A stretch of DNA of 64,000 nucleotides from Mucilaginibacter sp. OK283 (GTDB lineage Bacteria > Bacteroidota > Bacteroidia > Sphingobacteriales > Sphingobacteriaceae): positions 62,001 to 126,000 of the forward strand of contig NZ_FODR01000004.1 of assembly GCF_900110415.1 (NCBI RefSeq). The letters run 5' to 3'. Below the pieces are notes generated by a model. The model saw nothing but the letters and a program-made list of their open reading frames with translations, ran no database searches and was not told the origin of the DNA. Position numbers and translations under genes: made by a program. Positions 47,528-64,000 of this stretch are shown here, piece by piece; positions within the stretch are counted from its first letter, which is position 1; every line of letters begins with the position of its first letter.

Positions 47528-49408
47528 CTACAATAAGATTTGACTGACTTCAAAATTGAAAAACCCGGTTTTTTCATAATGATAGATGAGAATTTGGTTA
47601 TCAGGGATCAATGTCAGGGAAAATGCCTTTTCATCCGTTTTTGTTATTTGTGGGTTTAATAACAATATCTGTTCGCGGCCCAGAATAATCTCTTCGTTTA
47701 ATAACTTAATGGGAACCGGAATTTTTGATTCAATAGATAGGTAAGTCCCCGGCTCCATTTCCTTTAATCCCTCAATCATTTTAGAATAATAGATTTGGTC
47801 AGCTATCGTCAACCCTTCAGGATCCTTAACTGAGTGATACCCGTATTTAACTAGTGCAGAGAGTTTATTGAAGGCTTTTTTATCCTCATCCGTAAAGTCA
47901 TAAATGGAAACCGGCGGCAATTTTACCTTGAATTTTTTTTCGATTTGTACGAGTGAGAGGTAACGCTCCATTAATTTTTTGAAACGGCCGGCCTCCTCGT
48001 GGTACTGGAACTGTTTAGCCTGCACAGGATGGCCGGCTTGATGTATCTCGATTTTTTTGCCGAAAAAGAGGTAATACATGGCTTGAAAATAGTTTATGTA
48101 GATCTGCTTCGCCGGCGCGTGTTCTGGTTCTTCTGTGCTGAACTCTATTTTTATGCCGCCATCCTCCTGTATTTCCAGGTCGAACGCAATGGTAAAGCCT
48201 TGATAATCGAGTTTTATAAGCAGCTTACCGGGAATGCCGCTGAAAACTTCGTAACATACATTTTCAATGGCCAGCTTGTCCTCGGGAAAAACGATTTTAA
48301 CCTTTCCTTTCCTGGATTCGTGCATGATGTTGAACTGTGCGATGTCGTCGATGCCCATAAATTTGAAATCCTCAATCAGGAAGGAGAATTCATTTAATTG
48401 TGCCGCGGTGAATTTGAAAACGGGCGATGCATAACTATTTGAAAATTGTTTGTAGCTGTCAATAAAGGCCGTGTCGGTTGATGCGAAATTTATGGTGTGT
48501 TTGGTCGGCCCTGATACCTTCTGCAATGACACGATCTCGGTCATTTCCTTCGTCGCTTCTATTTTAACCTGCATATCGAATCCAGTGATAAAATCCTGGG
48601 CGGTCTGCGTATCTGTAAACCCTTGTTTATGGTCGGCAACCACGTTTTCTTTAATGTTGGCAATCAACCCGGTTACAAAATCCTCTCCATAAAGTTCAAT
48701 ATGCCCGATGCCTAACTTCTTTAGCCTTTTTTTCTTCAATGCAGGCAGGGGAGGGCCGACCATAAACCTTTTTTTGGTCTTGCTTTTCAGCTTGCTTTCA
48801 ATATGGTCGAAGTCAGCCCAGATGTTTTCGTCTTCATAGCCGTAACCCAGGAAGAGTACATGGTGCAAGGAAATTTCGTGAATAACAGCAGCCCAAAAAG
48901 GGTCTTTAAAATTACGATTATACATTTTCGAATAATCGGTAGCAGTTACTACCAGACTTTTACCATTCTTGATATCACCATGTATCTTGTAAATCTTTAC
49001 TTTGGCCTGCGATGTCCCAATCACATCGTTGTCCGTGGTAAGTGCCGCTGTACGCGGAGGGAAATTGTTTTCCAGTAGCTCATCATAATTTGTGGTAATG
49101 ATTCGCTTAAAGTGGGAGACAAGACCCAGTTGTTGATGGACATGTTCTGCGATGGGCGGCGTTTTAAATCGTTCTTGGATAACTCTTTCCAAAAATGCAC
49201 GACCGTTTTGCACAACAAAATCTTCTGAAAAGTGAATAAGGTCCTTTGAAAGGTCAAGTTCTTTCTGTTTTGCTGGAGAAACAGCGTTATTGAGTAAAGT
49301 CTTTATTTCATTTACAGAAGGGAACCCCGCATAAAAAGAGAACCCAGACCCCACCCACAAAAGTACTTGGTCCTTGCGGATAAGTTCATAAAGGTCATTT
49401 ATCGGCAT
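47528..49408 (-). CDS. SIR2-domain protein, probable anti-phage NADase
   Basis: Protein of 626 residues. The N-terminal SIR2-like domain (about 1-255) has the NAD-binding motif WVGSGFSFYAGFP (18-30), the ITTNYDE motif with Asn107 (about 104-110), the catalytic-site histidine His143 in KIHGD and LGYGYEDENIW (about 187-197). The remaining about 370 residues are mixed alpha/beta with no family that I know. Stand-alone SIR2 proteins of this size (for example the DSR group) deplete NAD after sensing phage proteins; the C-terminus is usually the sensor. Neighbours are unknown or mobile-element genes, which fits defence. A toxin or NADase role is inferred, not shown. Confidence 0.82.
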   Translation of the reverse strand: MPINDLYELIRKDQVLLWVGSGFSFYAGFPSVNEIKTLLNNAVSPAKQKELDLSKDLIHFSEDFVVQNGRAFLERVIQERFKTPPIAEHVHQQLGLVSHFKRIITTNYDELLENNFPPRTAALTTDNDVIGTSQAKVKIYKIHGDIKNGKSLVVTATDYSKMYNRNFKDPFWAAVIHEISLHHVLFLGYGYEDENIWADFDHIESKLKSKTKKRFMVGPPLPALKKKRLKKLGIGHIELYGEDFVTGLIANIKENVVADHKQGFTDTQTAQDFITGFDMQVKIEATKEMTEIVSLQKVSGPTKHTINFASTDTAFIDSYKQFSNSYASPVFKFTAAQLNEFSFLIEDFKFMGIDDIAQFNIMHESRKGKVKIVFPEDKLAIENVCYEVFSGIPGKLLIKLDYQGFTIAFDLEIQEDGGIKIEFSTEEPEHAPAKQIYINYFQAMYYLFFGKKIEIHQAGHPVQAKQFQYHEEAGRFKKLMERYLSLVQIEKKFKVKLPPVSIYDFTDEDKKAFNKLSALVKYGYHSVKDPEGLTIADQIYYSKMIEGLKEMEPGTYLSIESKIPVPIKLLNEEIILGREQILLLNPQITKTDEKAFSLTLIPDNQILIYHYEKTGFFNFEVSQILL

Positions 49409-52308: not shown

Positions 52309-53303
52309 ATTATCGTTTCCTGCCGTTTTATACCTATAACGGCGACAGGAGCAGAGCGGAAATGGAATATTTCCGCTCCCTCTCCAATATCTGTACATAC
52401 TATGATTTGAACGTACCTGATGTGTCTTCTCTTACTTTTCCGCAGAATATTTTCAGTTCATGGGAAAATGTAGCCGGACAAATCAAAGCCATCGATAAAA
52501 AAATGGATTGTATCATCGTGCAGGATGTTGACCACGTAGCAACACTGGCAACCCTGAAACGATTGAACACGGGAAGTACCTTATTCTATGTGCCGGTAAG
52601 ACCCTTATGGCATTGGGGACAGGTGGCTGAACAAGAGCATATAGCTGAATTGGTTACCGCACTGTTCGCTTACCTGTATCAAATCGTCAAAATGCCTTTT
52701 TATGCAGAGGATAATAGTTACCTCAAATACCAGTATGATACCTTATTTGAATGGGTAACCGAGCAGGTAGACGAGGACGATAAGGATGAAAAAGAGTTCA
52801 AAGAATTGGAACTGGATACGCTCTACCTCATGCAAAATGCGGGCATTCATATTCTAAGATCAATCAGCGATCCCAATTGGATGGAACGCATGGAAAGTGT
52901 GGTTATAGCCTATGCCGATTTACCGGAAAAGGATTTGGAATGGGCGCTTTTAGCAATTGATTTTCTGCAATTGTATCAGCAGTATCCTGACCGCTCTGTT
53001 TTTGACCACATCCGGCCTGACCTCTACCACCTTGACGAAGAGGATCGTATACAGGCAGAGGAATACATTTCTTTCTATTGGAGCGGAAACGATTGCTTTA
53101 CCGACACCCTCGATGATTTGATCAATACGAATTTTCAGGAAATAGCTGTCATGGATGAACCCATAGCAGTGCAGATGTTCGATACCCTGAACGAAACAGT
53201 ACCGGAAGATTTTGACTTCGAGACCCGGCTGTTCGACCTCCTCAATAAATTATCAACCCTTTTACACCAATACGACCATGAAGAACGTGAGCCAACAGTT
53301 TAA
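52185..53303 (+). CDS. PRTRC-locus protein, possibly protein F
   Basis: Acidic soluble protein of up to 372 residues. The region from about residue 43 (FLPFYTYNGDRSRAEMEYF) onward looks like real protein, with a central helical part and many Asp/Glu residues; there are no membrane segments. Its first 40 residues are probably not translated in this frame, because another frame covers the same bases, so the true start may be the ATG at about 52362 or a frameshift from 52129. Its place between proteins C and B suggests the PRTRC protein F position, but I could not confirm the family. Its end overlaps protein B by 26 bp. Confidence 0.7.
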   Translation: MENTAIIRGVRRQTKPLAGRRGGTTQPASKRTARHSRNGFLNYRFLPFYTYNGDRSRAEMEYFRSLSNICTYYDLNVPDVSSLTFPQNIFSSWENVAGQIKAIDKKMDCIIVQDVDHVATLATLKRLNTGSTLFYVPVRPLWHWGQVAEQEHIAELVTALFAYLYQIVKMPFYAEDNSYLKYQYDTLFEWVTEQVDEDDKDEKEFKELELDTLYLMQNAGIHILRSISDPNWMERMESVVIAYADLPEKDLEWALLAIDFLQLYQQYPDRSVFDHIRPDLYHLDEEDRIQAEEYISFYWSGNDCFTDTLDDLINTNFQEIAVMDEPIAVQMFDTLNETVPEDFDFETRLFDLLNKLSTLLHQYDHEEREPTV

Positions 53304-54027
53304 CGACCAGTACATGCCTATCAAAGCATTATTGATATACCAATCGGTTGGGCAGGAGGAAGATGGTAATTACCATCACAGGGAAAACAGGCAGGAAGTT
53401 TACGTCGAAAGCTATGATATCGGGAAACAGGGTAACCCCATCAACGCGCACCCGCTCACCATTCCTGAAATGCAATCCCTGAACGAATTATTGCAAAGTA
53501 CGCAGGAACTGAAAGGTGCCTATTTGAAAAGCAGGGGAGTACTGCCCGGTAAGGTGATATATATCAACCCGCTGACCAATGGTTTTGCAGTATGGTATAC
53601 TCCACCGCAAGAAATGAATTTGTTTTTTGTGGACAGCCTCGGCATTCCGTCAGGTAAAGCGCATATCCCGGCTATGGTATGGAAAGCCTCCAAAGACAGG
53701 CTCGATGTGTTTGCCATTAAGGGTAAAAGTAAGCCGACAGTCAAAACCGCCCTTTATCATGCACCTTACTTCAATATTCACTATAACGGTAATGTATGCA
53801 TGGGAACGGTTGTCATTAACATCGACCGCAACACCGCCCTTGAAGATTTCATGGCGCAATGGGAAAGCTATTTCTTTAACAGCTATTTCAGCCATACCAT
53901 CCACAGCGACAGCAGTACCAAAATAAATATCGTTCAGCTTTGGCAGGAGCAGGTCGCTACAGGCAGAGACTTTCCGCAGGAAGTTTTAGTCAAATCAAAT
54001 ACCTCATTAAACCATCTTATCCGATGA
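53278..54027 (+). CDS. PRTRC system protein B
   Basis: Protein of 249 residues from the ATG at MKNVSQQFNDQYMPIKALL; a longer frame overlapping the upstream gene is rejected. The core has the family pattern (VYVESYDIGKQGNPINAHPL in part, GAYLKSRGVLPGKVIYINP, and YNGNVCMGTV with a conserved Cys). Protein B has no known catalytic activity. It overlaps the upstream gene by 26 bp and the ThiF gene by 4 bp (ATGA), so synthesis of the three is probably coupled. Confidence 0.87.
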   Translation: MKNVSQQFNDQYMPIKALLIYQSVGQEEDGNYHHRENRQEVYVESYDIGKQGNPINAHPLTIPEMQSLNELLQSTQELKGAYLKSRGVLPGKVIYINPLTNGFAVWYTPPQEMNLFFVDSLGIPSGKAHIPAMVWKASKDRLDVFAIKGKSKPTVKTALYHAPYFNIHYNGNVCMGTVVINIDRNTALEDFMAQWESYFFNSYFSHTIHSDSSTKINIVQLWQEQVATGRDFPQEVLVKSNTSLNHLIR

Positions 54028-54845
54028 AAAAACTCAAAAAACTAATAGCAGTTAAACCTGCCGTGCATATCGTTGAAAAAGAATTGTTACAACCTTATAA
54101 CCCCGTCTCTATTAACCTGATTGGGGCAGGAGGTACGGGAAGCCAGTTACTGACCGCCCTCGGACGCATGAACCACGCCCTTATAGCCCTGAACCATCCC
54201 GGCCTGATGGTGACCGTATTTGATGATGATAAGGTAGACAGGGCTAACCTTGGCAGGCAGCTTTTTACCACTGCTGAATTAGGGTTATATAAATCGGTGG
54301 CACTGGTTAACCGTATCAACCGTTTCTTCGGCACGAACTGGAAAGCGGTGGCCGAAAAATATGATAAGGATTATTGTTCTTTGGAAAAGGGAGTGGCGAT
54401 TATAACCCTTTCCTGCGTGGACACCGTGAACGCCCGTTTTGAAATAGCGGAGATATTGGAAACCTATCACCGTCATATGCCGAATCACCGCAACAGGCCG
54501 GTATATTGGATGGATTTTGGCAACAGCAGGGATACCGGGCAGGTTTTAATAGCTACAGTGGGCGCAGTAAAACAGCCGGAATCTAAAAAGTACAACCCTG
54601 TTGGCAAATTACCTTTGGTTACCGAGGAATTTAAAGAGCTGTTGATTAGTTCCGAACAGGCAGACAATACACCATCATGTTCTTTGGCGGAAGCCCTGAC
54701 CAAACAGGATTTGTTCATCAACTCCGCACTGGCTAATCTCGGTGCATCGCTTTTATGGTCTTTGTTTCGGGAGGGCATGTTGTTCAATCGTGGTTTTTTT
54801 CTCAATCTAAAAGATTTCAGGACACAACCACTCAAAGTGGCTTAA
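54024..54845 (+). CDS. PRTRC system ThiF/E1-like protein
   Basis: Protein of 273 residues with the Rossmann-type adenylation fold of ThiF/MoeB/E1 enzymes. The nucleotide loop is LIGAGGTGSQLL (GAGGTGS at 34-40), followed by VTVFDDDKVDRANLGRQLF (about 68-86), the typical aspartate and arginine-containing adenylate motif. E1-like proteins adenylate the C-terminus of a ubiquitin-like carrier; the carrier here might be protein C, which is inference. A catalytic Cys candidate is in CSLAEALTKQ. It overlaps protein B at its start. A Mov34/JAB protease (PRTRC protein A) and the ParB-like member of the full cassette are not seen nearby. Confidence 0.9.
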   Translation: MKKLKKLIAVKPAVHIVEKELLQPYNPVSINLIGAGGTGSQLLTALGRMNHALIALNHPGLMVTVFDDDKVDRANLGRQLFTTAELGLYKSVALVNRINRFFGTNWKAVAEKYDKDYCSLEKGVAIITLSCVDTVNARFEIAEILETYHRHMPNHRNRPVYWMDFGNSRDTGQVLIATVGAVKQPESKKYNPVGKLPLVTEEFKELLISSEQADNTPSCSLAEALTKQDLFINSALANLGASLLWSLFREGMLFNRGFFLNLKDFRTQPLKVA

Positions 54846-54856
54846 TTTTAAATGCA

Positions 54857-55048
54857 ATGGAAATTATAGACATGAACGGCAAGGTCATACAAGTGACCGA
54901 CCTGAAACTGTCTCTTTTACAGGCTGATGATTACCGGCACTACCGCCACACTGATCCTGCTTTTGCAGCAAAAGATGAAGTGTTGGCAACTTATTGGAGT
55001 GATATTTATCAAAAGCTATTATTATTGGAGCTACAAACCGCACAATGA
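54857..55048 (+). CDS. Unknown 63-residue protein of the PRTRC operon
   Basis: Small protein, mostly helical after a short beta start (MEIIDMNGKVIQVTDLKLSL, then an Asp/His/Tyr-rich part HYRHTDPAFAAKDEVLATYW and a Leu-rich end). It starts 11 bp after the ThiF stop and overlaps the macro-domain gene by 4 bp (ATGA). The tight spacing supports a real gene. I recognise no family. It may be an adaptor between the PRTRC proteins and the macro-domain protein. Confidence 0.6.
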   Translation: MEIIDMNGKVIQVTDLKLSLLQADDYRHYRHTDPAFAAKDEVLATYWSDIYQKLLLLELQTAQ

Positions 55049-55497
55049 TACATTTTACACAGGGTAATTTATTGAAAAGTAATGCCAGGGCTTTGGTCAA
55101 TACGGTAAATACCGTGGGTGTTATGGGAAAGGGGATAGCCCTCCAATTCAAGAATACTTTTCCGCTGAATTATAAATTGTACCAGGATGCCTGTAAGAAT
55201 GGCAAGCTGACAACAGGCCAGTTGTTGGTGGTTCACGAAAACGACCTCCTGCGTGGTGAAAAGATCATTATAAACTTCCCTACCAAACAGCACTGGAAGC
55301 AGCCATCAACCTATGAATACATTGAATCGGGTTTAGTCGCCCTTCAAATATACCTGATCGAAAACCCTGTTGAAAGTTTGGCCATGCCCGCTTTGGGTTG
55401 TGGTAATGGCGGGCTGGACTGGGAAGTAGTTAAACCTATGATCGTGGAATACCTTTCTGATATTGACACGGAGTTTTTTGTTTATGAGCCGCTTTAA
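55045..55497 (+). CDS. Macro-domain protein (DarG-like ADP-ribose hydrolase)
   Basis: Protein of 150 residues made of a single macro domain. It opens MIHFTQGNLLKSNARALVNTVN (read in parts), with TVGVMGKGIALQFKNTFP (about 25-43), the ADP-ribose-binding loop of DarG-type antitoxins, and LAMPALGCGNGGLDW (about 112-126), the second phosphate loop. DarG removes ADP-ribose that the toxin DarT puts on thymidines in DNA. No DarT-like gene is visible in the window, so this may be an orphan antitoxin, an anti-defence factor or a general ADP-ribose hydrolase. It is joined by an ATGA overlap to the PRTRC operon. Confidence 0.88.
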   Translation: MIHFTQGNLLKSNARALVNTVNTVGVMGKGIALQFKNTFPLNYKLYQDACKNGKLTTGQLLVVHENDLLRGEKIIINFPTKQHWKQPSTYEYIESGLVALQIYLIENPVESLAMPALGCGNGGLDWEVVKPMIVEYLSDIDTEFFVYEPL

Positions 55498-55516
55498 GGT
55501 GTTTAAATTGCTCGGC

Positions 55517-55846: not shown

Positions 55847-58800
55847 GTGACGGAAAAGATGATCAGAGACAGTTATTACCTGGGAATAGGAATTGATGAA
55901 TACCCAGGTGATAAGCGGTTAAACAACGCAGTAGGCGATGTTACGCGTATTCGGCGTTTGTTAGAAGACAAATACGGATTTAAGTCTCTACGTGATCCTC
56001 TATTGAACGGAGATGCCACTCGAGATAATATCTTAAACGAGCTAAATAATCTTTGCAATTTTATTGGCAAAAATGACAATGTGATCGTCTACTTTGCGGG
56101 TCATGGCAATAAGGCCCCTACAAGTGAGGCCGGCTATTGGGAACCAATCGACTTTGATCCTCATAAAATATCAACGCGGATTGACAATTCTTCAGTACTG
56201 GATTTACTGGAGGGCATAGATGCACAGCATATTCTTTTAATTTCAGATTCCTGCTTTTCAGGTACTTTTTTAACCCGTGACCGATCCGGGACTTCAGAAA
56301 CCGATCATGATTATCTGGATAGCCTCAAGTCTGGATGGATTTTAGTTTCCGGTGGCTTGGAAAACGTCGGCGACGGAGTCTCGGGGAAGGGGAGTACATT
56401 TAATCAAACCATTTGCCGTGTCCTTCAAAGAAACTCAAAGCCAAGCATGGCTTCTGGTGACCTGTTTGAAGAGGTCATCAGGATAATGAAGGAAAGCACA
56501 TTTCAAAGTCCCGGGGCTGCTCCGATCAAGAGAGACAGTATCCATCAGGGAGGGCAAATGATATTTTTTCAAAATTCTGATGAATCAGAAGATGTGCCTG
56601 ATTTTCCAATACCGGAGGTTGTAATTCAAAATGCCTATTTACCCAGAACACTGACGAACTATTCGGATAAGCGACCGGTACTAAGTTTTTTTTATGAGCC
56701 TGAAGTGGGAAATGTTATTTTGGATGACCTGATTAATACTCAAAAAAGGATCGTAATATTAGGCGGGGCTGGCTCAGGAAAATCGATCGAAATGAGTAAA
56801 GCAATGGAAAGGGTCAAGGCTTCAGATAAAGGATTAGTTCCATTGTTTAGGAGGCTTAACAATTATACTGATGGTGACCTCGACCAGTACTTACCCGCAG
56901 CGTGGAAACAGGTTCCCGTTGAGAGGCTGGTCATCTTACTGGACGGACTTGATGAAATACAACCTCAATTTGTAAACACAGCGCTTAGAAAAATAAGTGA
57001 TTTTGGCGAAAGATATCCGGATATCACTATTGTCATCAGTTCACGGACCAATTTTTACGAGTTGCCTTCAAAATCTTTTTCGGGTACACTGAGCGGATAC
57101 CTGGTTTACTTATTGAATGATATTAATCTTCATGCTATCAAAAATTACGTTCAGGCAATGGGGCTGGATGGTGAAAGATTTGTTAAAGAAGTTCAGGATC
57201 ATAACTACCTTGATCTGGTCCAAAAGCCATACTTTCTGAATATACTTTTTAATTACTTTCATAAAAACAATGACCTGAATGTCCGGCGATCTGATGTTTT
57301 AAACGATGCGCTCGACCATTACTTCGAGGCTAACCGGGAGCAATATAAAAACGCAGATATGCCCCTGCCAAACGAGGCGCTTGTTCCACTTGCTGAGCGG
57401 ATAGCATTTGTAATGGAGTTATTGGGAAAAAACTTCATTACCGACGATGAAATTAGTAGGATTATTACACAAGAAAAAGAGTACCGTTCCCTTCGTTATC
57501 TGCCGGCTTTCAAATATGACCAGGAAACGGAACAATGGTACTTCGAACATAATAATATTCAGGAGTACCTGGCCTCAAGAATATTGAAAAAACAGAATTT
57601 CGACAAAATGGTCGATTTGTTAACACTAACTTCTTCTGGTATTTCTAAAATTAAGCCGACTTGGGTAAACACGCTGTCCTTCATGATCAGTATTGGCCAG
57701 GATGAAGAAATAAAAGGAATATTAGATTGGCTCATTAAAAATGAACCAGAAATTTTAGTACGATTCGAGCCGGACAGGCTTCCACAAACGACCCGTATTG
57801 CGATCTTTAAACAAATATTTGAATATTATCGAAGCCTTCAGATATGGCTCAGCTCCAATAAGTTTTCTGATAAGGAACTTGCGCGCTTTGGTCAGTCTGA
57901 GGAAACATTGAATTATTTATTAGCAATATTGACTGACGACGATTCAACCAGATTCGATGTGCTCAATACAGCCCATGTTCTCCGAAGAATCGAAATATCA
58001 AAATTCAAAGGATATCAGAAATCTATCCGTGGTTTAATTTTGGGGCTACTCGAAAGGAAAGACCTTAATGAAAGTGACCAATACAGCCTCATCGGTTCAC
58101 TAGCTGATCTTGGGTTCGCCGATGATGATACAATAGGGTATCTGATTTCAAAATATGCTAACCGGGAAAACCAATATTTAAGGGCCGGGCTTTATAAGAT
58201 TATCCGAAGATCTGAGAATCTGGATAAATATGCCGATGTTTTTATTACGGGACTTCGTTTTAATCATTTTAACTATCAAAGTAAAGATCGTGACACGGTT
58301 ACCTTGATGGATGAACTGTCACAGCTAAAGGCTGCGGTGAAACAATTCAATAAACCCGGGTCAATAAGAAAATTGCTTGAAGCGGTTACTGTCGACATTA
58401 ATTCTGTACATCAATTCTTTGCTGAATTCAAAGAGGAAATGCAGACCATATTGGAACACATTTTTGTTGCATACGAGCAGGATTCATCCCTGTTTTCGCT
58501 TATTGCAACATTTTTCGCGCGTCATGCTACGGAGCAGCGAAGCCAGTTAGTTCCAACACTGCTGGAAATGATCGATGCACATGGAATAAGGTGGGAAACT
58601 CTGCAATTTGTGTTAAATGGCAAAGGGCTTCGTGAATATGAGATATCTTCCGCAGCTGCGGCATTAATCAATGAACAGACGATTGAACAGTTGATCACCC
58701 AATATAAAAAGGGCACAATCGAAAGTTTACAGTTGCAGCAAATATTTAATAATTTCAAATGGCGGCAGACCGACTGGCCCGATTACGATGAGCGATTGTC

Positions 58801-60202
58801 ACTCTTTAAAAAATCACTTCAAGGGGCAACTGATATCATATTCCCTCAGGAACCAGAAGTTGACAGAGCCGCACTGTTCAAAAAAAATGCTCAGAGAGAG
58901 TTCGATTTGCTATTCAATCCGGATAACATAAAAGCCGAAGTCAAAGCAGTTTTTAAGTATTTGGAAAAAGACACCGTAACTTATGACGACCTTCATCGCT
59001 ATAAAAACGGGGAGTATGTTGATATCAGAGATAAATTCAGTAGTATTTCCGCTGAACTTTTTCGAAATTTTACTTATGGCAATGCTTCCATATCTCAAGC
59101 AACTATTTTAGAATGGATTGATGAAAGTTCTCAATTTGAGAATTTTAGGATCGATGCCATCAAATCGAGGCTTTTAGCGCTGCCGGAACTTGAAATCAAT
59201 AAAGAGCAGTTATCTTATATTCAGAGTTGGGTGCAGCGAAATGAAGATACTAATATTTATACGTGGTATTTTATCAGGAGGTTTAAGTTTACACTTCCAG
59301 AAGAAAGGTATCTGGAATTTACCCGGTATTTTAGTCCCTCAGAGGAACGAGATTTACAGCAAGGCGGTTTTATTGAACTGTTAACCGGTTTTGTTTCTAA
59401 AAATAAACTTGAAGATAAAGTACGTTCAAATCTTAAAAGTGGCGACTTGGATTTTGTTGTCTGGACTGCTAACGCAGGATATGCGTTGAGAAATGATCTC
59501 ACAGATACTTTTAATGGCATACTGGATTTTATCGAAACAACAAGCCAAAGCTGGCACAGCTATAGAGATCTTCTTAAATTTTGGTTTGAAAAGACAGGCG
59601 ATATTGACAGGTTGATAAAAATAATTAAGGAGACTGAAAACCAATCGTTGAAAGAGGACTCGATTCGTTTACTACTGGATTCGGAAAAAGCTGATGGATT
59701 TCTCATTTCTTATTTCCAGGAACTATTGAGTAAACAGGAAATTTCTGAACCGGAGAAATTGACAGGGGCGAATTACCTGATCAAACTTGGGATATTAGAT
59801 GGTTTTGAATTTATAGCAGATGCCTTTCTCAAAGCTCCTTCCCCTGATTTTGATTTTAGGGAAAATTTTCGGAATATATCCAAGATCATTGATCCCGCAT
59901 CGCTGGATACTCTTATGAAATTGTTATTCTTTGCAAAAAAAACTGAGTATAAAAACGATGTCTTTAATGATCTTGAGTCTTTAATATTAGAAACCCTGTT
60001 TAACATCGGCATTCAATCGAAAGAACATTTCAAAGCGGTCAAAGATCATCTTCAGCAATTCATTTCAAGTTATAAAAATGAAATCCCTCATATCAATTTC
60101 CTGGAATTTACAATTACCAGGATTGAAGATCAGCTGAACGTTAAGTTATCACGGGAATTTGGCTTGGAAGATGCTGTAAAATTGTTGAATTCGTTAAATT
60201 AG
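55847..60202 (+). CDS. Caspase-like protease fused to NACHT ATPase and helical repeats (putative anti-phage effector)
   Basis: A 1451-residue single-chain protein. Residues about 8-240 form a caspase-like (peptidase C14) domain that starts YYLGIGIDEYPGDKRLNNAVG; the catalytic His86 (YFAGHG) and Cys136 (SDSCFSG) are both kept. A NACHT NTPase follows, with Walker A GGAGSGKS (306-313) and Walker B VILLDGLDE (362-370), and helices up to about 600. Residues about 600-1451 are long helical repeats of HEAT/TPR-like character, probably the sensor. Bacterial NACHT proteins act in phage defence; binding of a phage trigger should assemble the ATPase and activate the protease. The start may be the GTG used here or an ATG four codons later. 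No separate substrate gene is evident. Confidence 0.88.
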   Translation: MTEKMIRDSYYLGIGIDEYPGDKRLNNAVGDVTRIRRLLEDKYGFKSLRDPLLNGDATRDNILNELNNLCNFIGKNDNVIVYFAGHGNKAPTSEAGYWEPIDFDPHKISTRIDNSSVLDLLEGIDAQHILLISDSCFSGTFLTRDRSGTSETDHDYLDSLKSGWILVSGGLENVGDGVSGKGSTFNQTICRVLQRNSKPSMASGDLFEEVIRIMKESTFQSPGAAPIKRDSIHQGGQMIFFQNSDESEDVPDFPIPEVVIQNAYLPRTLTNYSDKRPVLSFFYEPEVGNVILDDLINTQKRIVILGGAGSGKSIEMSKAMERVKASDKGLVPLFRRLNNYTDGDLDQYLPAAWKQVPVERLVILLDGLDEIQPQFVNTALRKISDFGERYPDITIVISSRTNFYELPSKSFSGTLSGYLVYLLNDINLHAIKNYVQAMGLDGERFVKEVQDHNYLDLVQKPYFLNILFNYFHKNNDLNVRRSDVLNDALDHYFEANREQYKNADMPLPNEALVPLAERIAFVMELLGKNFITDDEISRIITQEKEYRSLRYLPAFKYDQETEQWYFEHNNIQEYLASRILKKQNFDKMVDLLTLTSSGISKIKPTWVNTLSFMISIGQDEEIKGILDWLIKNEPEILVRFEPDRLPQTTRIAIFKQIFEYYRSLQIWLSSNKFSDKELARFGQSEETLNYLLAILTDDDSTRFDVLNTAHVLRRIEISKFKGYQKSIRGLILGLLERKDLNESDQYSLIGSLADLGFADDDTIGYLISKYANRENQYLRAGLYKIIRRSENLDKYADVFITGLRFNHFNYQSKDRDTVTLMDELSQLKAAVKQFNKPGSIRKLLEAVTVDINSVHQFFAEFKEEMQTILEHIFVAYEQDSSLFSLIATFFARHATEQRSQLVPTLLEMIDAHGIRWETLQFVLNGKGLREYEISSAAAALINEQTIEQLITQYKKGTIESLQLQQIFNNFKWRQTDWPDYDERLSLFKKSLQGATDIIFPQEPEVDRAALFKKNAQREFDLLFNPDNIKAEVKAVFKYLEKDTVTYDDLHRYKNGEYVDIRDKFSSISAELFRNFTYGNASISQATILEWIDESSQFENFRIDAIKSRLLALPELEINKEQLSYIQSWVQRNEDTNIYTWYFIRRFKFTLPEERYLEFTRYFSPSEERDLQQGGFIELLTGFVSKNKLEDKVRSNLKSGDLDFVVWTANAGYALRNDLTDTFNGILDFIETTSQSWHSYRDLLKFWFEKTGDIDRLIKIIKETENQSLKEDSIRLLLDSEKADGFLISYFQELLSKQEISEPEKLTGANYLIKLGILDGFEFIADAFLKAPSPDFDFRENFRNISKIIDPASLDTLMKLLFFAKKTEYKNDVFNDLESLILETLFNIGIQSKEHFKAVKDHLQQFISSYKNEIPHINFLEFTITRIEDQLNVKLSREFGLEDAVKLLNSLN

Positions 60203-60664
60203 AATAGTTGCCAAGTTTGACGGATTAATTTCAGCACAGTAATTTTTATGTTGATAGAAGATTTAATCAGCACCTAAGTCATTTTGTTTATTGTCGTGTA
60301 GGATATACTCATCCAAATTTTTAGGTTGTTTGCTCTCTTTTACCAAGTTCTTACTCTGATGCTACCCAGAATTAATTTGTAATTGATTTATGTCTCGGTG
60401 AAAATCGATTCCTAACTTATTGAAACATCGGATAAGGCGTTTATGGAAAAATACAAATCTTCGGTAGTGGGCTAGGAATTAACATTTGTCAATAACGTAA
60501 CAGTCATGGCGGAGTGGGTTAAAAATATGACAATATATTTTACGGAAACATAAGAATCAAAAAATAACTGTAAATATTGGCACATATTTATATCTTAGTC
60601 AGGTCAGAATAGTTTGCCATTTTCAATCGCTCCTAAACAATCACACCTAAACAATTACTACTGC
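60203..60664 (+). other. Intergenic region upstream of the DUF262 genes
   Basis: About 460 bp, A/T-rich and without a supported gene. The first DUF262 frame can be extended to a TTG at 60614, but the ATG at 60665 starts the conserved domain better. No terminator for the caspase-NACHT gene was seen. Confidence 0.45.
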
Positions 60665-62473
60665 ATGGCAGAACTTGTATTTAGTATCAACAATATTTTT
60701 AATGCTGAAAACAGTGACGGCTGTCTTGAACAACACAGCGCCGATCGTTATCACATACCAGCTTATCAGCGCGGCTATAAATGGGGATCTCTTCACGAAA
60801 CCGATCCCGTGCGCATGCTACTTAAAGACCTCTATGAAGCTTTTGAGGCCGCAAAAAAAAATCCGGATAAAGAATATTATCTCCAATACATTACGGTAAA
60901 ACGGTCTGCAAATTACGTTCACCTTGAGGTTATCGATGGTCAACAAAGACTCACTACGTTATCCATTCTGTTATCTGTGCTTAGTCGGAAAGTAAAAGGA
61001 ACGGTAAATATTGCGATCAATAAACTGGACTATGCGATCAGGGAAAATTTTTTTGTGCGCCATATTTATCCGGCTAATGCTTTAACGGTATTACTCAATA
61101 CAAATTGGGATAAGGACAAGGGTATTGTTTTGTCGGAAGAGGACCAAGGTATCGCAAAACATAGGTTATATAATAATCAGGATGTATTCTATATAACGGA
61201 AGCCGCTAAAGCGATGGATAATTTCATGTCCGTGCAAATGCAGGAGGAGGAACTACCTAATTTCTACCATTTCGTCCTTAACAACGTTTTCCTGATTGTC
61301 AATGCTGTAGAACCATATGTGTCAAGCGAACAGGTTTTCAGTAACCTGAACAGCAATAAAGTTCCACTTACGGAGCCCGAATTGATAAAAGCATTAATAC
61401 TAACAAAAGCGGCAAGAGAAAAAGATAATAGGCACCAGAGCAGGCATTTTAAGGAGATTCTGGAGTTGCGTGCATCAATGGGAAGGACATGGGATGAAAT
61501 TTCAAGATGGGTAAATAACAAGGCTGTCAAAAGCTTTTATTTTGAGGAGACTGATGGAATGAAGGGCCTACTTAGTCTTGTAGCTGTGAAAATGGGCTAT
61601 CATCCCGATAAAGTAGATCAGGGCAGTCACCACCCCTTGTTTAACTATTTTCACAAGCAGTCAAATATCTCAGGGATATTTGATAAGCTCAAGAAATATT
61701 ATCAGATCCTGAAAGATTGGTATGAAAATGATAAAAAATATAACCTGTTGGGGTTCGTACTTTTTGCAAAGGGCAGCAGCCATAGAAAGAATAAAACCAA
61801 TCTCATCGCCAATTTGCTGGATAGAGACCAATTCAGTTTTTCTGAAAAATTAACATCAATAAGAAATGAACTAATAACGGTCGATTTTGACAAACTATTG
61901 TATGATGGCACGTCCCCAAATGATGAAATTCACAGGCTCCTCCTTGCAATAAATGTTTTTAATACGGACGCCAGCAAAATAACTCGATTTGATTTTTTCG
62001 CCTTCAAGCGTTCCGGCTGGACGCTTGAACATATCTTCTCACAGCGGCCAGAAGGAAAAGGCAAGATACTGACAGCCGACGATAAGACATGTATTATAAA
62101 TATCTTGGGGGCTTCAATGACGGAAAAAATTCAAAAAACTCTCGACAAAAAAACAAGAACGGATGCTGAAAAGGAAATCTATTACGAAGCATTGCAAAAA
62201 CATAATCTCATAAACAGTATCGGAAATATGACGCTGCTGACCGGTGAAGATAATAGTTCAAACGGCAACGGTCAGTTCGATGCAAAACGAAGCAATATCC
62301 TGGAATTGGTTCGCGGCGGGAGTTTTGTGCCAAAACATACTTTTGAGGTGTTCAGTAAGCTTATCCTGCCTAATCCAGGAGATCTCAGAAACTGGGGGAG
62401 AACCAATATCGATGAGCACGCGGATCATATCAAAAAAACAATTGACAAGCTAAAACAGAACATCTACGCATGA
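60665..62473 (+). CDS. DUF262/DUF1524 GmrSD-like protein
   Basis: Protein of 602 residues from the ATG at MAELVFSINN. The N-terminal DUF262 domain has IPAYQRGYKW (31-40) and DGQQRLTT (91-98), the ParB-like NTP-binding motif. The C-terminal DUF1524 domain has LEHIFSQ with His456 and GNMTLLTGEDNSSNG (about 522-536) followed by KRSNIL, the HNH-type nuclease pattern. In GmrSD, a type IV restriction enzyme, the GmrS half hydrolyses NTP and the GmrD half cuts modified phage DNA. Both parts are in one chain here. Its stop overlaps the start of a second DUF262 gene by 4 bp, so the two are made together. Confidence 0.9.
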   Translation: MAELVFSINNIFNAENSDGCLEQHSADRYHIPAYQRGYKWGSLHETDPVRMLLKDLYEAFEAAKKNPDKEYYLQYITVKRSANYVHLEVIDGQQRLTTLSILLSVLSRKVKGTVNIAINKLDYAIRENFFVRHIYPANALTVLLNTNWDKDKGIVLSEEDQGIAKHRLYNNQDVFYITEAAKAMDNFMSVQMQEEELPNFYHFVLNNVFLIVNAVEPYVSSEQVFSNLNSNKVPLTEPELIKALILTKAAREKDNRHQSRHFKEILELRASMGRTWDEISRWVNNKAVKSFYFEETDGMKGLLSLVAVKMGYHPDKVDQGSHHPLFNYFHKQSNISGIFDKLKKYYQILKDWYENDKKYNLLGFVLFAKGSSHRKNKTNLIANLLDRDQFSFSEKLTSIRNELITVDFDKLLYDGTSPNDEIHRLLLAINVFNTDASKITRFDFFAFKRSGWTLEHIFSQRPEGKGKILTADDKTCIINILGASMTEKIQKTLDKKTRTDAEKEIYYEALQKHNLINSIGNMTLLTGEDNSSNGNGQFDAKRSNILELVRGGSFVPKHTFEVFSKLILPNPGDLRNWGRTNIDEHADHIKKTIDKLKQNIYA

Positions 62474-64000
62474 AGCCCGGGAAATACTCGCTAAAAGAAT
62501 TATTTAAAGACCGAAATGTAGAGCGGATACTTATTCCTGAAATTCAGCGCGACTACGTATGGGGTAATGATCAGGTTAATGGCCTGCTTGGCTCTATCAT
62601 TGATGAATATCGGAAATTTAGGAAAGCAGATTATCACATAGAGGTGTTGACAGAGGATCAGCAATTGCAACATGCTTTCTATGATTATTATAAAAAACAG
62701 AAGCACGTTGCCAATATTGGCTTTATATATGCATATGATGATCCTCATTATATCGGCAACTATTTTTTGATTGACGGGCAGCAACGTTTAACGACAACGT
62801 ATCTGTTATTACTTGCACTTTCTATCCTTTCCGGCAGAACGGAAGAATTTAAAAAGGTTTATTTTTCGGGTAAAAAATTAAAATTAGATTATAAAGTACG
62901 TGAGTCAGCACACGATTTTTTCACGAGTTTTGTTGAATTTGCTTTGGAAGGAAAGAATGTTGAACTTACTAAAAGGCAAAATTGGTATCTTGATGATTAT
63001 GAAAATGACACCACGATCAGCGCTATTTACAATAACTATTTAACCATTTTTCGGTATATTCAGGTGTCAACGGCGTCTGAGCTTTTTGATTATGTTCAGG
63101 ATTATGTGGAGTTCTGGTATTTTGATACAAATATCAGCGAACAGGGTGAGGAACTTTATATCTATATGAATGCCCGCGGCGAACAGATGCAAAGTAACGA
63201 AAACCTGAAAGCCAATCTTTTGGCAAAAATAAAAGATGACAATCAGAAAGACGAGGCAGGGAAAACATGGGAAGACTGGCAGGATTACTTTTGGATAGGC
63301 CGGGGCGAGAATGAAAATGCTGATAAAGGTTTTAATGAATTTTTGAATGCCATTGCAGGTTTTGAAAATTACAAGTTAACTCGTGCTAAACTCACTATTT
63401 CTAAATCTAAGTTTGACGAAGGGGGGATAAAAACAGCTACTTTAGTGGAATACCTTGATCTAACTATTATAGCTGAATATTTTTCAGCCTTTACAAATGT
63501 GATAGAAATAGCGGAGCAATGCAAGCTGGATTATGACTATCATGCCTGGGTTGAGAATTTTAAGCAAGACTGGTGGGACCTTATTAATAATAATAAGACC
63601 AATTGGTTCGCAGATCTTGATGATTCCAATCGCGGGCAGGAGCATAGCCGCATGGTATATTTCTGGTCCATTATCTATTATTTCAAAGATAAAAATCCGG
63701 ATAAAATGGAGGCAATCCGCCTGCTTCGATTGTATTTTGTCAGGTACTACAATTATGATAGGCAGGTTAAAAACATTATATCAAGAATTGATTTTTATAA
63801 CCAACATCGTGTATTAAGCGATAATTTAAACACAAATTCTAACGACGAAGTACTTAAACACCAATTTTATGCCACGCTAACCGAACAGGAAACCAAAAAG
63901 TACGAGGCACTTATTTGGCAGATCGAAGATCATCCCTTCAATCTTGAAGGGGAAGGTTTGGAGGCTGTTAATGTTTCCCATTTGGTAGATTTCTCTGCCA
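62470..64000 (+). CDS. Second DUF262-domain protein (3' end beyond window)
   Basis: Open from an ATG overlapping the previous stop (ATGA) to the end of the window, giving 510 residues with no stop. The N-terminal DUF262 domain reads IPEIQRDYVWG (about 22-32) and DGQQRLTTTYLL (102-113). About 280 residues later come YMNARGEQMQSNENLKANL and a helical region, and near the end IEDHPFNLEGEGL. No HNH motif is visible so far; it may lie beyond the window or be absent. A tandem pair of DUF262 proteins with different C-termini suggests a two-subunit complex, of which only the first shows a nuclease signature. Function in DNA restriction is inferred from the family. Confidence 0.87.
   Translation, partial: MKPGKYSLKELFKDRNVERILIPEIQRDYVWGNDQVNGLLGSIIDEYRKFRKADYHIEVLTEDQQLQHAFYDYYKKQKHVANIGFIYAYDDPHYIGNYFLIDGQQRLTTTYLLLLALSILSGRTEEFKKVYFSGKKLKLDYKVRESAHDFFTSFVEFALEGKNVELTKRQNWYLDDYENDTTISAIYNNYLTIFRYIQVSTASELFDYVQDYVEFWYFDTNISEQGEELYIYMNARGEQMQSNENLKANLLAKIKDDNQKDEAGKTWEDWQDYFWIGRGENENADKGFNEFLNAIAGFENYKLTRAKLTISKSKFDEGGIKTATLVEYLDLTIIAEYFSAFTNVIEIAEQCKLDYDYHAWVENFKQDWWDLINNNKTNWFADLDDSNRGQEHSRMVYFWSIIYYFKDKNPDKMEAIRLLRLYFVRYYNYDRQVKNIISRIDFYNQHRVLSDNLNTNSNDEVLKHQFYATLTEQETKKYEALIWQIEDHPFNLEGEGLEAVNVSHLVDFSA

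Follow-up and report, generated by a model that had tools for sequence, protein, structure and literature searches.

The question raised by this locus is whether one bacterial protein can serve as an immune system by itself. The 64,000-nucleotide stretch that we analysed, which we call the window, is positions 62,001 to 126,000 of contig NZ_FODR01000004.1 of Mucilaginibacter sp. OK283, a soil-type bacterium with a 7.19-Mb genome, and it carries on its forward strand a gene whose likely translated span is 55859..60202. The product joins a caspase-type protease, a NACHT module and a long helical solenoid, a three-part build that the initial annotation had proposed and that is borne out by sequence profiles, motifs and predicted folds. 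We consider it likely that this is a single-gene, NLR-like abortive-infection protein whose effector slot is exchangeable. Features lie on the forward strand unless stated otherwise, and residues are numbered throughout with the GTG at 55847 as residue 1.

The N-terminal domain (residues 8-245; 55868..56581) is assigned as a caspase or metacaspase by its match to the Pfam profile Peptidase_C14, which covers residues 14-218 and stands clearly above the cut-off (E 1.9e-17, 64.2 bits against 21.4), by the PADLOC model 'caspase', and by structural comparison. Residues 1-640 were modelled with AlphaFold2 from 27 sequences, at a mean pLDDT (predicted local distance difference test score) of 83.9. 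In this model residues 8-245 superpose on metacaspase-4 with a root-mean-square deviation of 2.5 Å over 214 aligned residues (Z 23.7, VIA-align), and Foldseek returned caspase-fold matches including metacaspase-9 and MALT1, with E from 1.9e-10. The catalytic residues claimed at the outset, His86 (codon 56102..56104) and Cys136 (codon 56252..56254), are present and are aligned by phmmer to the dyad of Arabidopsis metacaspase-4. Both are kept in all nine proteins that carry a caspase on the chassis defined below (the caspase rows), a count that includes the window protein and both of the near-copies L049 and L050; such labels are our handles for loci (L) and genomes (G). As candidate acidic S1-pocket residues we note Asp31 (55937..55939), present in 9/9 caspase rows, and Asp134 (56246..56248), present in 8/9 with alanine in L074, at positions which we take to be those of the S1-pocket aspartates of metacaspases and MALT1. 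On that assumption cleavage is predicted after arginine or lysine and not after aspartate; the preference at P1 is thus probably basic, as in metacaspases.

The NACHT module, with its helical and winged-helix parts, occupies residues ~264-590 (56636..57616), as judged from a 27-row alignment and from comparison of model residues 244-640 with NLRC4, NLRP3 and NOD2. Its Walker A (GGAGSGKS, residues 306-313, 56762..56785) and Walker B (LLDGLDE, residues 364-370, 56936..56956) are intact, as had been claimed, with Lys312 and Asp369 in all nine caspase rows and Asp366 and Glu370 in eight. Further on, the sequence FEHNNIQE (residues 566-573, 57542..57565), presumably the NLR-like winged-helix histidine motif, has its F, H, N, N, Q and E invariant in 27/27 rows. 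A profile search for NACHT did return a match, but a weak one, at 17.1 bits against a gathering cut-off of 26.7 (the closest homologue, L022, passes with 27.8); the NACHT assignment therefore rests on the match of folds. In that comparison NLRC4 aligns with residues 244-640 at Z 23.3, with a deviation of 5.7 Å over 363 residues (VIA-align), and Foldseek with the 1-640 model matched NLRC4, NOD2 and NLRP3, the best at E 1.1e-12. With these Walker motifs and a module modelled in an NLR-like fold, the window protein is a predicted NACHT/STAND NTPase. Given that the predicted template modelling scores are modest for both models made, of residues 1-640 and 565-1451 (0.59 and 0.70), we trust the folds of the domains above their relative placement.

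The remainder of the chain, residues ~604-1451 (57656..60199), is a HEAT/ARM-like helical solenoid, which we presume to be the sensor. The claim of about 850 residues of helical repeats held up, in that residues 565-1451 are modelled as almost entirely helical solenoid of ~850 residues (29 sequences, mean pLDDT 88.4). Among solved structures the solenoid comes closest to HEAT and ARM proteins, with Z values of 8.8-10.4 that reflect merely a common helical-repeat arrangement, and alphaRep proteins were found by profile. Its least conserved long stretch, residues 851-1100 (58397..59146), is a candidate ligand-binding region: mean pairwise identity per 50 residues among three caspase rows is 0.25-0.31 there, is also low at 1251-1300 (0.31), and is 0.45-0.55 in the caspase part, residues 1-250 (0.50-0.55 for 51-250). 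The lowest block lies near 960-1010 in both the nine-row (0.20) and the 29-row (0.18) alignment, the latter being likewise low at 715-764 (0.22). Such a fast-changing centre may be the pattern expected of a sensor face, without being proof of one.

Whole-protein searches of 60 genomes returned two kinds of relative, namely caspases set in different contexts and proteins whose match starts no earlier than residue 255-299. Judged by sequence comparison, the NACHT and solenoid part is a chassis common to proteins with differing N-terminal effectors, and this natural series of effectors is new. With residues 252-1451 as the query, 17 of 149 Mucilaginibacter genomes match at 1e-20, and with an alignment of nine chassis as the query 35 of 399 family-sample genomes match at 1e-30, the genome of the window being counted in both. 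A first scan of named genomes with the single protein as the query confirmed none of 23 stretches, and a scan with the alignment confirmed 37 of 79, corresponding to 35 loci, mostly in Bacteroidota. Outside the Bacteroidota we found the chassis in two deltaproteobacterial metagenome-assembled genomes, in single cases from Balneolota, Cloacimonadota and Neomarinimicrobiota, and weakly in one actinomycete (L104, just 41.9 bits against the chassis profile). Fourteen plasmid records matched, none covering 80% of the query.

De-duplication left 58 distinct chassis proteins. Clustering sorted the N-termini into DUF4062-like (20), Mrr-like (15 and 3), caspase (9), SMEK (2) and HNH (2) groups, and the N-terminus of the remaining seven is single, missing or truncated. 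When representatives were compared with Pfam, SMEK was far above its cut-off in 2/2 and Mrr_cat above it in 2/4, while DUF4062 fell below in 3/3 (E 0.0008-0.0026) and HNH in 1/1. Homology starts at one place in these proteins, since Arg267, at the junction of effector and chassis, is at least 90% conserved in a 27-row alignment that includes caspase, DUF4062 and SMEK rows.

How the effectors came to differ was approached with two trees. The chassis tree holds 52 of the 58 proteins, leaving out the partial or weak L083, L099, L067, L104 and L032 and the near-copy L050; it places the eight caspase rows on one side of one branch, grouped with DUF4062 rows, with support of 92 in the Shimodaira-Hasegawa-like approximate likelihood-ratio test. 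That branch bears no star, and the tree is a quick one whose branches are long. In the tree of 23 caspase domains, eight of the nine chassis caspases fall within a starred set, L007 and L088 are unresolved beside that set of eight, and the chassis caspases need two changes. A single capture of a caspase by the chassis would be the simplest reading. Repeated effector swapping elsewhere on the chassis appears weakly supported, because the one-clade test for DUF4062 gives p of only 0.031 without L097. With L097 in the tree it gives p 1e-50, a value which is inflated, given that L097 and L098 (Chitinophagaceae) are nearly identical chassis proteins and L097 is without the DUF4062 effector; on this ground we rejected repeated swapping as a firm result.

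Our preference for a single-gene immune protein follows from several of these results. The metacaspase-4 and NLRC4 fold matches (Z 23.7 and 23.3) lie in the expected ranges, the catalytic pair and the Walker lysine are kept together in 9/9 caspase rows, the 58 chassis proteins have five recognised N-terminal kinds that include defence-type effectors, and presence is patchy both in the genus (17/149) and in the family sample (35/399). Furthermore, there is a remote match to the antiphage NACHT proteins HyoA and EruA, and the surroundings hold a SIR2 gene, a DUF262 pair and a 1783-residue protein with AAA_22 and NPHP3_N matches, all of which are taken up below.

From these comparisons we infer sensing, oligomerisation, activation by proximity, a basic P1, cell death and defence. 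At rest, the solenoid would keep the NACHT module as an ADP-bound monomer, until the solenoid is bound by a component of a phage or by a host protein that a phage has disturbed. Nucleotide exchange and oligomerisation of the NACHT module would follow and bring the N-terminal caspase domains together, so activating them by proximity. The active caspases would then cut proteins of the host or of the phage, probably after arginine or lysine, and the cell would stop or die ahead of phage release. The effector slot would be exchangeable, related chassis carrying a TIR-like DUF4062 domain or nucleases in its place.

Several observations weigh against this account. The caspase row L088 has alanine for the first glycine of Walker A and EGLDD as its Walker B, so a switch that depends on hydrolysis may not hold across the whole caspase clade. 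The scores for the Pfam NACHT profile and for HyoA and EruA lie under the curated cut-offs. In AVAST (Avs) proteins a STAND switch separates the effector at the N-terminus from the sensor at the C-terminus, a layout presumed for the window protein as well; no AVAST model of PADLOC-DB matches the window protein at E <=0.1, the model 'caspase' being the only one that matched. In viral contigs, a relative is encoded by 0/7 and 0/122 pattern matches. The neighbourhood yielded no gene for a substrate, and in six of the eleven chassis-bearing genus genomes that have DNA like the PRTRC stretch upstream of our gene (described below), the chassis gene is not within 30 kb of it.

The strongest alternative to direct killing is that the caspase is an initiator and not an executioner, one specific cut activating a second effector such as a gasdermin-like pore, a Canu-like pro-nuclease or another protein encoded elsewhere. 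Bacterial caspases do activate gasdermins (PMC9612521) and the Canu pro-nuclease (PMC12799240) by specific cuts (these and the other papers cited were available in part, and statements that rest on them are limited to the available parts), and the genome of the window has two further C14 genes. A substrate dedicated to one protease would usually be encoded alongside it, however, and the surroundings of the gene speak against one. The gaps before and after it measure 349 and 411 bases and are touched by no additional ORF (open reading frame) longer than 64 residues. Among the window and L070-L074 and L088, compared with each other and with 15 other loci for ORFs of 70-1000 residues, no neighbour of up to 1000 residues is common to any two of the seven caspase loci (E 1e-5), and all six matches for caspase loci went to non-caspase loci; the contig of L074 is just 6 kb long, and the flanks of L048 lie outside the comparison. 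The seven loci likewise share no gasdermin-like neighbour, no search aimed at gasdermins having been made. Nor was an EACC1 partner recognised beside the gene, whose neighbours are the macro-domain and GmrSD genes, again with no search aimed at EACC1. We therefore think the initiator role unlikely. The claim that the gene forms a system of its own gains support from the isolating gaps and from the want of a common neighbour in the seven caspase loci, and the caspase-NACHT-solenoid protein looks like one that would work as a single-gene system.

A second alternative, quite unlikely as a rival to direct killing, is that the caspase cuts its own chain as a step of activation or release before it acts, the likeliest place being near Arg146 (56282..56284), a candidate self-cleavage site in the loop after Cys136 at which cleavage is a guess. 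Metacaspases commonly self-process. Residue 146 is arginine or lysine in 6/9 caspase rows and either 144 or 146 is basic in 7/9; the model is unsure at 146-150 (pLDDT <50), and a basic P1 is predicted. Against it, residues 144 and 146 are both non-basic in L049 and the near-copy L050, and by eye there is no common basic site in the linker to NACHT. It is important to note that self-cleavage is compatible with the single-gene immune protein that we favour, and not exclusive of it. A non-immune role, as a regulator of stress, development or kin conflict of the sort found for some STAND proteins, which include transcription regulators, is very improbable, given that patchy presence (17/149 in the genus), the defence-type effectors in the same slot and the defence-rich surroundings all fit immunity better.

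A larger proposal, which we put forward tentatively and hold to be somewhat doubtful, is that the single-gene immune protein amounts to a whole inflammasome in one chain. A single family of NACHT-solenoid receptors, most of them in Bacteroidota, would exchange its death enzyme (protease, NADase or nucleases) at a fixed junction and keep its type of sensor, so that similar phage triggers would lead to killing by different chemistries, and the caspase branch would kill by direct proteolysis at a basic P1 without a gasdermin or partner gene. If true, nature would have supplied a series of effector swaps on a single receptor chassis, with comparable sensors ending in a protease, an NADase or a nuclease. 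With such a series one could ask directly if recognising a trigger and carrying out the killing are separable modules in immunity of the NLR type, and if a bacterial caspase can abort infection when it has neither a gasdermin nor another substrate dedicated to it.

How much of this was known before? Fusions of metacaspase and NACHT, some with WD40, were catalogued in 2012 with Bacteroidetes included, and NACHT was recorded in 15 metacaspase sequences from Actinobacteria, Bacteroidetes, Chloroflexi and Cyanobacteria (PMC3501461). The suggestion in the initial annotation that this domain order may be unstudied was therefore too strong, metacaspase-NACHT-WD40 fusions being in print since that year. 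Like the window protein, the 2012 fusions have a caspase-type protease and a NACHT in one bacterial chain; they carry WD40, or pentapeptide and WD40, after the NACHT, or else NACHT and HEAT_PBS before the protease (PMC3501461), whereas in the window protein the NACHT is followed by the ~850-residue HEAT/ARM-like solenoid that is common to non-caspase proteins. The available part of the 2012 paper holds no functional test of these fusions (PMC3501461). The general kind is already known, and the useful part is the caspase-chassis variant with its sister effectors.

Layouts that join effectors, caspases among them, to STAND modules were described in 2020-2021 (PMC7159879, PMC8195603). For several bNACHT proteins phage defence has been shown, and compared by description these share with the window protein an N-terminal effector, a central NACHT and a C-terminal sensor, presumed in our case; in place of the caspase, bNACHT25 and 32 use a PD-(D/E)XK nuclease, which is the effector of bNACHT25, and an NCH1 domain (PMC12169576). 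It may be that a bNACHT with a caspase has already been tested, given that caspase homologues known to act against phages, NLR systems included, are listed in a paper of 2025, which cites bNACHT work of 2023 (PMC12799240). Among the matches listed by VIA-align there is no bacterial Avs or bNACHT structure, which excludes nothing.

HyoA and EruA are NACHT antiphage proteins by name, with models of 1430 and 1318 positions. The window protein scores 63.0 bits against HyoA (NCBIfam NF058534, cut-off 1200; best stretch residues 416-725) and 33.8 bits against EruA (NF058535, cut-off 1000; best stretch residues 293-583), which suggests a relative and not a member of either. Since the NACHT of both starts near model position 20-40, they would have no caspase-sized fused effector ahead of it. 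A text search of the literature gave, among the matches listed, no publication on HyoA or EruA as an antiphage protein. The EACC1-associated caspase (NCBIfam NF047832; Kaur et al. 2020, PMC7159879) has a related caspase domain, at 43.7 bits, below its cut-off of 140.

DUF4062, the domain type that fills the effector slot of sister chassis proteins, has been described as a phage-triggered, TIR-like NADase, Swarozyc, and stands beside NACHT in human NWD1, NWD2, TEP1 and NPHP3 (PMC13174449). The tested bacterial Swarozyc differs in having an auxiliary domain and not this chassis (PMC13174449), and the slot in the window holds a caspase. On the caspase-chassis branch or the effector series themselves no publication was among the matches listed, subscription journals being mostly outside the coverage.

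Upstream of the caspase-NACHT gene lie genes for SSB, PRTRC-E, Prok-E2 and PRTRC ThiF and a macro-domain gene, and downstream lie two GmrSD-type genes. The neighbours named in the initial annotation were found, namely a GmrSD/DUF262 gene at 60614 and a SIR2_2 gene at 47528-49408 (reverse strand), whose 626-residue product has ThsA as its nearest PADLOC model (E 2.5e-21). About 11 kb downstream on the same contig, the reverse-strand gene L146:10454-15802 encodes the 1783-residue protein with AAA_22 and NPHP3_N matches, possibly another STAND-type protein, for which there was no PADLOC match. The SIR2 gene, the DUF262 pair and this protein support the claim of defence-type surroundings; the nearby DUF262 and SIR2 genes mark a defence-rich place and do not by their position indicate parts of the caspase-NACHT system. 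The DUF262 gene was rejected as a partner, no relative of it being found beside the six other caspase loci compared. The macro-domain gene (55045-55497) stands alone and matches the DarG profile at 1-145 of 329. It too was rejected, as an antitoxin partner, in that only the macro half of DarG was matched and like DNA follows PRTRC ThiF in further genomes of the genus, where the matches extend to query positions 2411-2491.

We read the locus as a cargo slot next to a PRTRC module, with many defence-type genes. DNA like window positions 53000-55500, the PRTRC stretch, occurs in 75 of 149 genus genomes (our own counted), among them 11 of the 17 that bear a chassis. The chassis gene lies within 30 kb of this DNA in five of those eleven (G000, which is the window, G156, G095, G017 and G036), which fits cargo carried by a single type of mobile island. 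Ten relatives mostly carry different genes after the PRTRC-like stretch, with two shared by G067 and G077 and one by G098 and G062, and ORF lists show the caspase-NACHT gene in the following 12 kb in none of the ten. In G106 a reverse-strand gene (L142:5282-9766) for a 1495-residue protein with a SMEK match (62.3 bits) and a weak NACHT lies ~2.1 kb beyond the PRTRC-like stretch and occupies the slot that in the window holds the caspase-NACHT gene. By eye, G028 has two DUF262-like genes after the macro gene. G156, which is labelled as the same species, has an Mrr-type chassis protein instead, at 25% identity, and no DNA like window positions 60614-64000.

As to the limits of the gene, the mechanical ORF at 55847-60202 has 1451 codons counted from the GTG and no internal stop. 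The ATG at 55859 is the likelier start, given that the first methionine of two homologues aligns with Met5 of the window protein, and would give a protein of ~1447 residues. Mucilaginibacter polytrichastri retains this long frame with 52% identity at the protein level, far more than chance would allow. Scans returned 15 promoter sites against 16.1 expected and 6 terminators against 3.9 expected. The M. polytrichastri protein (L022/L070), which is the closest homologue, has ~130 extra residues at its C-terminus, without counterpart in the window protein and in L023.

Two further observations concern caspases in other arrangements. In other Bacteroidia (L008-L015, L017, L018 and L020) a related caspase domain stands at the C-terminal end of the ORF, the reverse of the order in the window, with part of these ORFs cut by the end of the locus or contig. 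In Pedobacter soli, a second caspase-like gene with an FSGHG motif (L073:4441-7013, reverse strand) lies divergently beside the caspase-NACHT gene and is accompanied, by eye, by an alpha/beta hydrolase-like gene.

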